Source: Mucilaginibacter sp. OK098
GTDB lineage: Bacteria; Bacteroidota; Bacteroidia; Sphingobacteriales; Sphingobacteriaceae
Length of the DNA: 64,000 nucleotides
Assembly (NCBI RefSeq): GCF_900142915.1
Contig: NZ_FRCM01000003.1
Span: forward strand, 62,504-126,503
Direction: 5' to 3'
Shown: one piece after another, positions 11,027-14,160 of the stretch
How the letters are laid out: each line of letters begins with the position of its first letter
Numbering within the stretch: position 1 is the first letter of the stretch
The notes under the pieces: model-generated
The model's input: the letters and a program-made list of their open reading frames with translations, nothing else
The model's database searches: none
What the model was told of the DNA's origin: nothing
Made by a program: the position numbers and the translations under genes

Positions 11027-12403
11027 ATGGCATCCATCAAACCATCCGTACCAAAGGGCACCCGTGATTTTTCACCTACCGAAATGGTGAAGCGTAATTT
11101 TATTTTTGATACCATTAAAAGCGTATTCCGCAAGTATGGCTATCAGCAGATAGAAACGCCGTCGATGGAAAAGCTATCTACCCTAACTGGTAAATATGGA
11201 GAAGAAGGTGATAAGCTAATTTTCAAAATACTTAACAACGGAGATTTTTTATCTGATGCCGGGATCAGCGAATCAAACATCACAACTGATAGTAAAAAGC
11301 TTGCGTTCCAGATAGCAGAGAAAGCTCTCCGTTATGACCTCACCGTCCCCTTTGCCCGTTATGTAGTACAGCACCAAAACGAGATCACTTTCCCTTTTAA
11401 GCGTTTCCAGGTGCAGCCGGTTTGGCGTGCAGACAGGCCGCAAAAAGGCCGTTACCGTGAATTTTACCAATGTGACGCCGATGTGGTTGGCTCTGACAGT
11501 TTATTGAACGAAGCTGAATTTGTGCTGATCTATGACGAAGCTTTAAGCAAGCTTGGATTAAAAGATTTCACCATAAAAATCAATAATAGAAAAATACTAT
11601 CAGGCATTGCCGAAATTATAGACAAAGCTGATAATATTATTGATTTGACTGTAGCCATTGATAAATTGGACAAAATTGGTCTTGATGGCGTGATAAAAGA
11701 ACTGATGGATCGTGGTTTTACCGCAGATGATATTGAAAAAATAAAGCCTGTTATTTTGCTCGAAGGATCAAACAGTGAAAAGCTGGAAAGCCTGCGCAGC
11801 GCGTTAGCAAGTTCAGTAACCGGCTTAAAAGGCTGTGAGGAACTGGAAACAGTATTCAATTATATTGCCAACTGCCAACTAATAACTGCCAGCTTAGAAC
11901 TTGACATAACTTTAGCGCGCGGCTTAAACTACTACACCGGGGCCATCTTCGAGGTAAAAACCAATGAGGTAGCCATGGGCAGCATAGGCGGTGGCGGCAG
12001 GTATGATGACCTTACCGGGATGTTCGGCTTAAAAGGACTAACCGGTGTTGGCATCTCTTTTGGTGCCGACAGGATCTATGATGTAATGGACGAGCTTAAC
12101 CTTTTCCCCGAAGCAACAAGTCAGTCCACCCAATTATTGATCTGCTGCTTTGATAAGGACGGTGAAAAGTTTGCCATGCCGATTTTGCAGCAACTGCGCA
12201 AAAAAGAGATTACTGCGGAGCTCTATCCGGCCGGGGCTAAACTTAAAAAGCAGCTTGATTACGCCAATAATAAAAATATTCCATTTACTATTATCATTGG
12301 CAGCGACGAGATTGAAAGCGGCTTGTTAACTATTAAAAACATGCAAACAGGTCTGCAGGAAAAATGCAGCGCTGATCAGATCCTGGAAATTATCAGCAAA
12401 TAA
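11027..12403 (+). CDS. hisS: Histidyl-tRNA synthetase
   Basis: Class II aminoacyl-tRNA synthetase charging tRNA-His. The chosen start [15 protein letters not shown] is the canonical N-terminus; the TTG nine bases upstream belongs to the promoter. Motif 2 lies in [20 protein letters not shown], the histidine-binding loop is [14 protein letters not shown] and motif 3 is around [16 protein letters not shown]-terminal anticodon-binding domain covers the last ~95 residues. 458 residues is the usual size. It is followed by more than 1 kb without genes. Confidence 0.97.
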
Positions 12404-12479
12404 AAAGGGAATAGGATCCTGAATTTATTTAAGCTCTCCATCTGCTAATTAACCTATCCAGATGACAGCCTCCTTGTGG

Positions 12480-13200
12480 TACCTAAACAGGTATTGATGC
12501 GGTGGGCTTTTGGAATGAACTTATAGATATCCCTTTAAGAATTACTGTATCGCTTGTATTACCTGTATTGCACAATACAAACGATACAGCGATACAATAA
12601 TTTAAAATATAACTTATAGATATCCCTTTAAGAATTACTGTATCGCTTGTATCACCTGTATCGCACAATACAAACGATACAGCGATACAATAATCAAAAA
12701 ATATAACTTATAGATTTCCCTTTCAGAATTACTGTATCGCTTGTATCATCTGTATCGCATAAACCTAACGATACAGCGATACAATGATTAAAAAATATAC
12801 TTTATAGATATCCCTTTGAGAATTACTGTATCGCTTGTATCACCTGTATTGCATAATACCTAACGATACAGCAATACAACAACCATTTATTGCAATATAA
12901 AAGTGTATAAGATCAGTATTACTAAATGATATTGAGTTTATAGTTTAATAAAACAGACAGGTAGTTATTAAAAATATACTATATATATAATTATACTATT
13001 CTATTTAGATTACCTTAACCGTTGATACTTCAAATGCTTAGCTTGTATCGTTGTATCACTATGCTTACTGATACAACGATACAAGCGATACAGGCGATAC
13101 AGGTTCACCCCTATTGGCTAATAATCCCGATATGAATTAAAATGCTGTTCTGTATCGTTGTTCTATTCGATACAGGCGATACAGTGATACAGGAAAACCA
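12480..13200. repeat. GATACA-word block: four 93-bp tandem units plus satellite hairpins
   Basis: Tandem units begin at 12518, 12611, 12705 and 12798 (period 93-94 bp). Each has a TTATAGATATCCCTTT segment followed by TGTATCGCTTGTAT and, after a spacer, the complementary GATACAGCGATACA. Units differ by point changes, so the array is not recent. Further clusters of the same word lie at 13042-13110 and 13150-13192. This block fills most of the 1.1 kb between hisS and the molybdenum hydroxylase operon; no convincing gene is present. An AT-rich stretch lies at about 12890-13020. Confidence 0.9.
13042..13085. repeat. Perfect 17-bp stem-loop of GATACA words
   Basis: CTTGTATCGTTGTATCA (13042-13058), a 10-base loop, then its exact complement (13069-13085). 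It is the strongest hairpin in the block. Confidence 0.85.
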
Positions 13201-13215
13201 AAGCAGCAGGTTGTC

Positions 13216-13307
13216 TGAACCATGATTAGTAGGATTTAAGGATTATCATGATAAGCCCCAATTAAAAAATCAAGTCATCCTAAAATCAAGCGAATCATGG
13301 TTCAAAA
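13216..13307. repeat. AATCATGGTTCA inverted repeat element
   Basis: TGAACCATGATT (13216-13227) pairs with AATCATGGTTCA (13293-13304). A 24-base stretch at 13284-13307 is repeated exactly at 21024-21047 after the JmjC gene. The remaining ~200 bases to the next ATG contain only scattered ATACA words. Confidence 0.7.
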
Positions 13308-13515
13308 AATAGCAGGATGATTAAGGAGTGTGCACCCCCATCAGGTATATTACCCCAATACAAACAATACAGCCATTACAAGCATTCCGCCCTAACTCTC
13401 TGTATAAAAGCATTATATAAAATAAAACATAACGGTGTTTTTGTAAAATCTTTGTTCCCGTCTTGTCATCTAAACAAAAAACTTTATAACTTGTACTACA
13501 ATAAAGCCATTACTT

Positions 13516-14160
13516 ATGGAAGACGAAAGAGACCATGCTTTGCCCGGATCTGAACCGGAGGCGAAGGATAATTCACGCCGTAATTTCTTAAAACAGAGCA
13601 CCTTATTAACTGCTATTGCCCTAACACCAGGCACAGCTGTTAAAGCCGCAGAGATGCACGTTGATGAAAAAATAGCGGCGGTATTTGAAAAGATGCCCAT
13701 AAAAATGGAGGTTAATGGCGTTGCGCACAGCCTTTCGGTTGAGCCGCGCGCTACTTTGCTGGATATTTTACGCGAACAGCTTGACCTTACCGGTACAAAA
13801 AAGGGTTGCGACCACGGCCAGTGCGGCGCCTGTACCGTGCATGTTGACGGGCATCGGGTAAACAGCTGCCTTACCCTTGGCGTTATGGCCAGCGGTAAAA
13901 AGATAACCACCATTGAAGGGCTTGCCAAAGGCGATGAGCTGCACCCCATGCAGGAAGCTTTCCTGAAACATGACGGGTTTCAATGCGGATATTGTACGCC
14001 GGGGCAAATCATGTCGGCAGTAGCTTGTATCAGGGAGGGGCATGCCAATTCAGAAATGGAGATACGGGAATATATGAGCGGGAACATCTGCCGCTGCGGG
14101 GCTTATCCAAACATAGTTAACGCCATACAGGAAGTTAAGGAAGGAGGGCAAGCCGTATGA
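13516..14160 (+). CDS. (2Fe-2S)-binding subunit of a periplasmic molybdenum hydroxylase
   Basis: Small iron-sulfur subunit of the xanthine oxidase family, most like PaoA/YagT of periplasmic aldehyde oxidoreductase. A twin-arginine signal (SRRNFLKQSTLL) lies at residues ~18-40, so the folded complex should be exported by Tat. The ferredoxin-like domain binds the first cluster (CDHGQCGACTVH with later C), and the helical domain binds the second (CGYCTPGQ and CRCGAYPN). 214 residues is normal. Its last bases overlap the next ATG (ATGA), giving tight coupling. It passes electrons from the Mo site to FAD. Confidence 0.93.
   Translation: MEDERDHALPGSEPEAKDNSRRNFLKQSTLLTAIALTPGTAVKAAEMHVDEKIAAVFEKMPIKMEVNGVAHSLSVEPRATLLDILREQLDLTGTKKGCDHGQCGACTVHVDGHRVNSCLTLGVMASGKKITTIEGLAKGDELHPMQEAFLKHDGFQCGYCTPGQIMSAVACIREGHANSEMEIREYMSGNICRCGAYPNIVNAIQEVKEGGQAV

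Follow-up and report, generated by a model that had tools for sequence, protein, structure and literature searches.

GATACA hairpin arrays of Mucilaginibacter, a dispersed intergenic repeat with a constrained hexamer and rapidly rewritten spacers

The clusters of GATACA and TGTATC words described in this work form a dispersed family of short, non-coding, intergenic hairpin repeats of Mucilaginibacter. The family is patchily distributed: among the 149 genomes of this genus, 7 contain it in abundance. They represent a real and rapidly rewritten repeat with a constrained hexamer. The evidence comes from the rates at which words, spacers and flanks change between related species, from the species-typical spacers of the arrays, and from the differing numbers of words at orthologous loci.

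The repeat stretch of the window

The repeats of the window, viz. the whole 64-kb stretch that was analysed (G000:C9:62504-126503, from a genome of 7.2 Mb), are located between two + strand ORFs, which are named from their translations only: one at 11027-12403, taken to be hisS, and one at 13516-14160, taken to be a [2Fe-2S] subunit of the xanthine-dehydrogenase type. GATACA or TGTATC is found 53 times in the window, with 26 of these 53 words lying within 12546-13191, and none of 100 dinucleotide shuffles of the window reaches this count (mean 21.45, sd 4.64, largest 35). TRF reports a tandem array at 12518-12879 with a period of 94 and 3.9 copies (90% matches, score 564), and the alignment of its 93-94-bp units shows that each consists of ~43 bp of AT-rich sequence and a 51-52-bp hairpin with six word slots. 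In the hairpin element of unit 1 (12546-12596) three of the six slots are exact, the slots reading in order TGTATC, TGTATT, TGTATT / AATACA, GATACA, GATACA. Five of the six are exact in the elements of unit 2 (12639-12689) and unit 3 (12733-12783, where the fourth slot is lost), and three of the six in that of unit 4 (12827-12878). When folded as single-stranded DNA, these elements give z of -4.65, -6.19, -4.49 and -2.01, respectively, and 10 of 200 shuffles of the unit 4 element fold equally well. Two separate elements are also present. One of these (13041-13101) has a stem of 18 perfect pairs, formed by 13041-13058 with 13069-13086 (DNA fold -18.8 kcal/mol, z -7.71), as well as two further GATACA words (at 13087 and 13096), and the other (13151-13191) has one TGTATC and three GATACA (z -3.02), the six elements of the window covering z from -2.0 to -7.7. 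The original prediction, viz. that this region contains a tandem array of ~93-bp units and separate GATACA clusters, is thus borne out by TRF and by the shuffle counts. The perfect stem of 17 bp that it placed at 13042-13085 is also real, but its length is 18 bp.

The whole of 12480-13400 had also been described as built of GATACA words, and this description holds for the array and the two clusters, but not for 13210-13309, which is an unrelated dispersed repeat. This is a palindrome of ~99 bp (GAACCATGATT ... AATCATGGTTC; DNA fold z -5.18), which looks like a REPIN and of which the genome contains dozens of copies, whole or partial; the repeat stretch has 46 matches in its own genome and most of them fall on it. 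The palindrome lies near GATACA elements in the window and is contiguous with them in L034 (G000:C6:292.7 kb). Another dispersed repeat, of the CATTGCGAG type, directly adjoins a GATACA element at L245 (G152:C16), for which L440 (G111:C4) is the orthologous site. The G152 element is absent from this G111 site, which is crowded with other repeats and presents neither a clean empty site nor a target duplication.

Distribution of the GATACA family

The distribution of the family was determined using the two-word pattern GATACAN{2,3}GATACA, with the reversed pattern serving as a control. The genome of the window (G000) has 24 matches to this pattern vs 1 for the control, and of these 14 are at the window locus, 8 on C6:269013-292831 and 2 are single. 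The numbers of matches in other genomes are 70 in G014, 164 in G054, 19 in G111, 25 in G152, 10 in G163 (7 of them in one cluster) and 18 in G187. These seven are the only genomes of the 149 with 10 or more matches; the remaining genomes have at most 6, and the reversed control gives at most 4 in each. Other GATACA clusters, for which a search had been proposed, are therefore present both in this genome and in its relatives. When 399 genomes from the family were scanned with a three-word pattern, 3 of them gave matches (G000, G048 and G187), all Mucilaginibacter, in a sample that was without G014, G054, G038 and G163 and included G111 and G152, the latter two being negative because they are without three consecutive exact words. 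Outside the family, 40 genomes from the rest of the class were examined; the two-word pattern matched at most 4 times in each of them and the reversed control up to 27 times. Nearly all clusters of G014, G054 and G038 (46 of 48) are located outside ORF calls, which were made by a simple caller and not by a gene finder. Plasmid and phage records gave no match to the GATACA stretch at "distant" sensitivity. In IMG/VR, the three-word pattern was found in at least 120 stretches, most with a single match, and a tighter element pattern gave 0 matches. Among genome contigs, at least 116 stretches matched the three-word pattern. Rfam gave no match in the window, and 12350-13550 gave 6 weak matches, all below the gathering cut-off. 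Further, no description of a GATACA hairpin family was found in the open-access papers that were searched.

The reversed control pattern, ACATAGN{2,3}ACATAG, led to a second word. It has 141 matches in G357 and 67 in G425, both from the same family but a different genus, and 27 in G086, from a different family of the class; this word was followed in these three genomes only (loci L503-L532). The ACATAG hairpins are similar in architecture to those of GATACA: among the 13 clusters listed, 11 contain both ACATAG and CTATGT at 8-9-bp steps, and some clusters are in tandem of ~83 or 164 bp. However, ACATAG and CTATGT occur in either order, whereas the GATACA words occur in one order. A further hexamer, GTTGTA/TACAAC with 9-bp spacing, is enriched in G048 (L209, L225 and others), where 13 pairs are present in 55 kb; GTTGTA pairs of G054 were left out of account, as they overlap with the TGTATC arrays.

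Anatomy of the elements

Of 112 clusters, 101 have TGTATC followed by GATACA, 5 contain words of one kind only, and in the other 6 several such elements follow one another in a longer run. In G152 and G111, 34 of 50 elements span exactly 41 bp, and in 39 of the 50 the innermost exact words are separated by 20 nt that vary in sequence; the same distance of 20 nt is seen in 5 of 6 elements of G163. Clusters of G152 and G111 contain elements in both orientations (e.g. L239:4801-5580). Among the 22 elements of G000, G187 and G048, a length of 50-52 bp is found in 13 and one of 58-59 bp in 4. The usual form in G014 and G054 is one TGTATC, a loop of ~13 nt and then a row of GATACA, or the reverse complement of this, with rows of up to 13 words at 9-10-bp steps. 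Only the word, the order and the step are common to the word arrays seen in G014/G054 and the elements of 41 or 51 bp found in the G000 group, and it is from these three features that we infer one family. The base that precedes the word is C in 36 of 45 cases in G000, T in 116 of 147 in G014 and A in 117 of 172 in G054; within the G000 group it is mixed, viz. C 44 and T 27 of 71 in G152, C 34 and T 23 of 58 in G111, and T 10 and C 9 of 20 in G163. A selected long stem is not supported, as the inner spacers are complementary across the stem in only 1 of 8 elements and, due to this, the hairpin as such may not matter.

Conservation of the words against spacers and flanks

The original prediction stated that the words remain intact while the spacers drift. 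This cannot be claimed from the window alone, where 8 of the 24 word slots of the four units are not an exact word (TGTATT, AATACA or worse) and the variable columns are 6/36 for the words vs 18/59 for the others, a difference that is not significant (Fisher p 0.15). Between species, however, the statement holds. For G152 and G111, fetched orthologous loci (8 and 6 stretches) were aligned and the substitutions counted, a word site being one that is exact in either species and near-words being counted as spacer. The words are changed at 14 of 432 sites (3.2%), the spacers within elements at 75 of 669 (11.2%) and the noncoding flanks, i.e. those outside ORFs of at least 100 codons, at 569 of 8291 (6.9%); for sites covered by ORFs the count is 2641/41544. 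The differences between word and flank (p 0.002), word and spacer (p 7e-7) and spacer and flank (p 9e-5) are based on tests that assume independent sites, an assumption that gene conversion would violate. The one-way counts, in which near-words are kept apart, agree with the above (words 10/390 and 4/384, spacers 65/496 and 57/514, flanks 577/8404 and 520/8309), and the near-words (TGTATT, AATACA) change like flanks in them (6/102 and 5/95). Most other pairs of species, with few sites each, point in the same way, e.g. words 3/102 and spacers 16/64 from G163 to G000, and 8/122 and 19/78 from G000 to G163, also on few sites; from G000 to G187 there is no clear difference between words and spacers (3/54 vs 3/41).

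The words are also nearly exact in the long arrays. The fetched arrays contain 172 exact words and 1 imperfect interior slot in G054 (23 clusters), and 151 and 4, respectively, in G014 (25 clusters), in counts that cover the fetched part of these genomes and miss a few imperfect words at the array edges (e.g. L464 and L487). In a degraded remnant, words and spacers would change at equal rates. Based on the unequal rates of words, spacers and flanks seen in the relatives, and on the exact words of the G054 and G014 arrays, it is clear that these repeats are not a remnant of this kind, and the earlier suggestion of selection or repeated conversion of the word is supported by the same rates as a joint claim.

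Word number and spacers at orthologous loci

The loci L454/L081, L455/L088, L469/L090 and L489/L481 are orthologous array loci of G054 and G014, with flanks that are 77-92% identical. The number of words in the long arm, in this order of loci, is 3 vs 7, 6 vs 5, 5 vs 2 and 4 vs 8, and the spacers are changed at all four. In the fetched arrays of G054 the spacers are of 22 kinds among 125, mainly ACA, AGA and GCA (75/125), with no 4-nt spacers; those of G014 include GGT, GAT, CCT, CGT and others (63 of 3 nt) together with 29 of 4 nt. Spacers from different loci are identical at a frequency of 0.140 within G054, 0.056 within G014 and 0.021 between the two, and in 300 shuffles of the species labels over 46 loci none reached the observed difference between within and between. 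The spacers are thus species-typical in G014 and G054.

Arrays and synteny breakpoints

The segment 12545-13093 of the window is homologous to a G163 array behind an ilvA-like gene (L253:5150-5697, 73% over 578 columns), and both ends of this homologous segment are in, or one base from, GATACA elements. A cluster of G187 lies behind the same ilvA-like ORF as in G163, with a different ORF on its far side. In G048, hisS and the xanthine-dehydrogenase gene are ~49 kb apart and there is no cluster at either. Two G014 loci join flanks that in G054 are found at two array loci each, viz. L485 (L488 and L452 in G054) and L083 (L487 and L451), and four other loci shared by G014 and G054 are collinear on both sides. 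Both G014 and G054 were assembled from metagenomes (completeness 92 and 79, respectively), and the two G014 breakpoints could therefore be assembly joins. Overall, these observations, made in draft or metagenome assemblies, are suggestive of some arrays marking synteny breakpoints. The xanthine-dehydrogenase-type gene that follows the window repeats at 12546-13191 has a GATACA array ~200 bp upstream of it in G014 too (L210:2319-2371), a shared position that could be due to coincidence or to regulation.

Discussion

The account that we consider most likely, and to which we give about an even chance, is that of an intergenic hairpin repeat whose word is read by a putative factor and whose arrays slip, exchange sequence and aid rearrangement. 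The functional unit would be the TGTATC/GATACA hexamer at 8-10-bp steps, with TGTATC in the left arm and GATACA in the right arm of a potential hairpin, and the word would be the binding site of a putative sequence-specific factor. Binding of such a factor to duplex DNA or to a cruciform appears likelier than to RNA, in view of the constraint on the words, of the spacing of the arms, which is constant in one lineage, and of the preceding base, whose bias depends upon the species. The number of words, which differs at orthologous loci, would change by slippage or unequal exchange, and the species-typical spacers would result from arrays at different loci exchanging sequence or being re-written. 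The arrays may also have served as homologous patches for chromosome rearrangement, as the pattern of junctions suggests, an example being the window array at the junction of hisS with the xanthine-dehydrogenase-type operon, and the patchy, many-locus distribution points to a probable spread to new loci.

The main rival to the view that a factor reads the word is neutral conversion, i.e. a satellite without function whose dispersed copies would keep the words and replace the spacers by slippage, unequal exchange and gene conversion alone. Several of the above results are as expected of such a satellite: the spacers outpace the flanks (75/669 vs 569/8291), they are species-typical as conversion would give, the number of words differs at orthologous loci, and many copies are present in few genomes only. 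However, a conversion tract would copy a spacer along with its word, and conversion by itself does not account for words that are exact (172 vs 1 and 151 vs 4 interior slots) alongside 22 kinds of spacers among 125 in G054, nor for the fixed distance of 20 nt. We regard a purely neutral origin as less likely than a factor that reads the word, but as a real possibility.

A role at the level of RNA, in which a GAUACA array behind stop codons is bound by a multimeric RNA-binding protein, on the principle by which TRAP binds an array, or protects the ends of mRNAs, is distinctly unlikely. Its evidence comes from the gene context, which was scored for 43 clusters of G014 and G054. In tandem contexts the orientation TGTATC-loop-GATACA follows that of transcription 18 times out of 24 (p 0.023), and the median distance to the upstream stop is 51 bp vs 167.5 to the downstream start; also, in G163 and G187 the first word starts one or two bases past the stop of the ilvA-like ORF. 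However, 6 of the 24 tandem cases are opposite, the clusters of G152 and G111 contain both orientations, clusters lie between divergent genes (6) as well as between convergent ones (13, p 0.17), and 12300-13600 of the window has no site resembling a Rho-independent terminator (a G+C-rich hairpin with a T run).

It is very unlikely that the elements are REP/BIME sequences that a RAYT (Y1 transposase) mobilises, in a Bacteroidetes version of the REP system. Similar to REPs, the GATACA elements are short, palindromic, intergenic, patchy and clustered in both orientations, and Y1_Tnp matches are found in all 9 of the 9 genomes tested. However, no GATACA cluster was found at distances of up to 1.5 kb from any of the 30 Y1 loci examined (of 46 hits in these 9 genomes), which fits, for Y1 transposases, the earlier statement that no recombinase is adjacent. 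At one Y1 locus (L264) five words are scattered, and at 7 of the 14 Y1 loci inspected the gene has different perfect hairpins on both sides. Such hairpins of their own are seen beside the Y1 genes L267, L275, L279, L280, L281, L284 and L286, and their sequence differs among species. Within 8 nt of the 156 ends of 78 elements, none of them from G014 or G054, the tags GTAG, GGAG and CGTC occur 1, 0 and 0 times, with ~3 expected for each. PMC6006769 reports that the REPs of Bacteroidetes subclass 2.6 RAYTs are atypical in being without GT[AG]G, and due to this the missing tag alone would not exclude a RAYT system and the missing linkage weighs more. Motifs like those of this subclass (NHxH and YIHxNP) are present in 4 of the 30 Y1 loci (L267, L275, L280 and L281), of which L280 fits exactly the motif printed in PMC6006769. 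With 0/30 loci linked and tags below the chance expectation, mobilisation by RAYT is disfavoured.

The weak proposal that the clusters derive from a mobile replication module (an AAA_25 helicase-like protein and a DUF6371/zinc-ribbon protein), for which they would have served as iterons or operators, is most improbable, for, although elements are found around the gene pair in G000 (L034), G187 (L256), G152 (L241) and G111 (L247), close AAA orthologues (82-90%) are, among the matches listed, limited to those four species, a homologue at E 1e-20 is present in 97 of 149 genomes, most of them without a GATACA excess, the sole G014 homologue (C9:121771) has none of the listed G014 arrays next to it, and no plasmid or phage record matched. 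At L034:7894-9593, a GmrSD_N (DUF262) gene and a neighbour of 207 aa, which has no Pfam match, lie between GATACA elements and adjoin the AAA_25/DUF6371 pair.

Returning to the reading in which a factor binds the word, these repeats provide a natural experiment on what a bacterial repeat keeps: the word is near-exact, the spacer and the number of words are free, and each species has its typical set of spacers. Should there be a protein that reads the word, its binding site could be taken directly from the arrays, and a comparison of protein and word would be possible across lineages that use different words. Moreover, the arrays seem to stand where chromosomes were rejoined. Given the ACATAG words of other taxa, hexamer-word hairpins may constitute a distinct and unnamed class of Bacteroidota intergenic repeats, in which each lineage has its own word and a dedicated, co-evolving putative reader keeps the dispersed arrays in step; this is a tentative possibility that falls well short of probable. 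If it is true, spacers change in concert across the genome.

Comparison with known systems

CRISPR arrays have long identical repeats and unique spacers of similar length. The GATACA arrays have a repeat of 6 bases and spacers of 3-4 bases with recurring variants, and the original view that they are not CRISPR is upheld. A likeness is seen to REP/BIME/REPIN sequences, which are described in PMC3733652 and PMC6006769 as short imperfect palindromes, intergenic, dispersed, in both orientations and commoner behind genes; the GATACA elements are likewise short palindromic repeats with many intergenic copies. However, they are without the GTAG/CGTC tag and without a RAYT beside the copies examined, and they consist of a reiterated hexamer at 8-10-bp steps with up to 13 words in one arm. 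The neisserial dRS3/NIME repeats (ATTCCC N8 GGGAAT), for which PMC3898611 indicates that a phage integrase site is known, are similar in keeping 6-bp inverted words around a variable interior, in their intergenic arrays and in their link to rearrangement, but they have one ATTCCC-type word per side, whereas the GATACA elements have arrays of TGTATC and GATACA. Lastly, the TAACTGA heptamer direct repeats, which according to PMC4679880 are found in Beggiatoaceae, Cyanobacteria and some Bacteroidetes and are located mostly just upstream of start codons in the best-studied genome, are also lineage-restricted intergenic arrays of a short word, some of them long, for which a role in binding or rearrangement has been suggested. 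However, in comparison to this direct repeat of seven bases, the GATACA elements consist of a hexamer and 2-4 free bases, in mirrored order and located nearer to stops.
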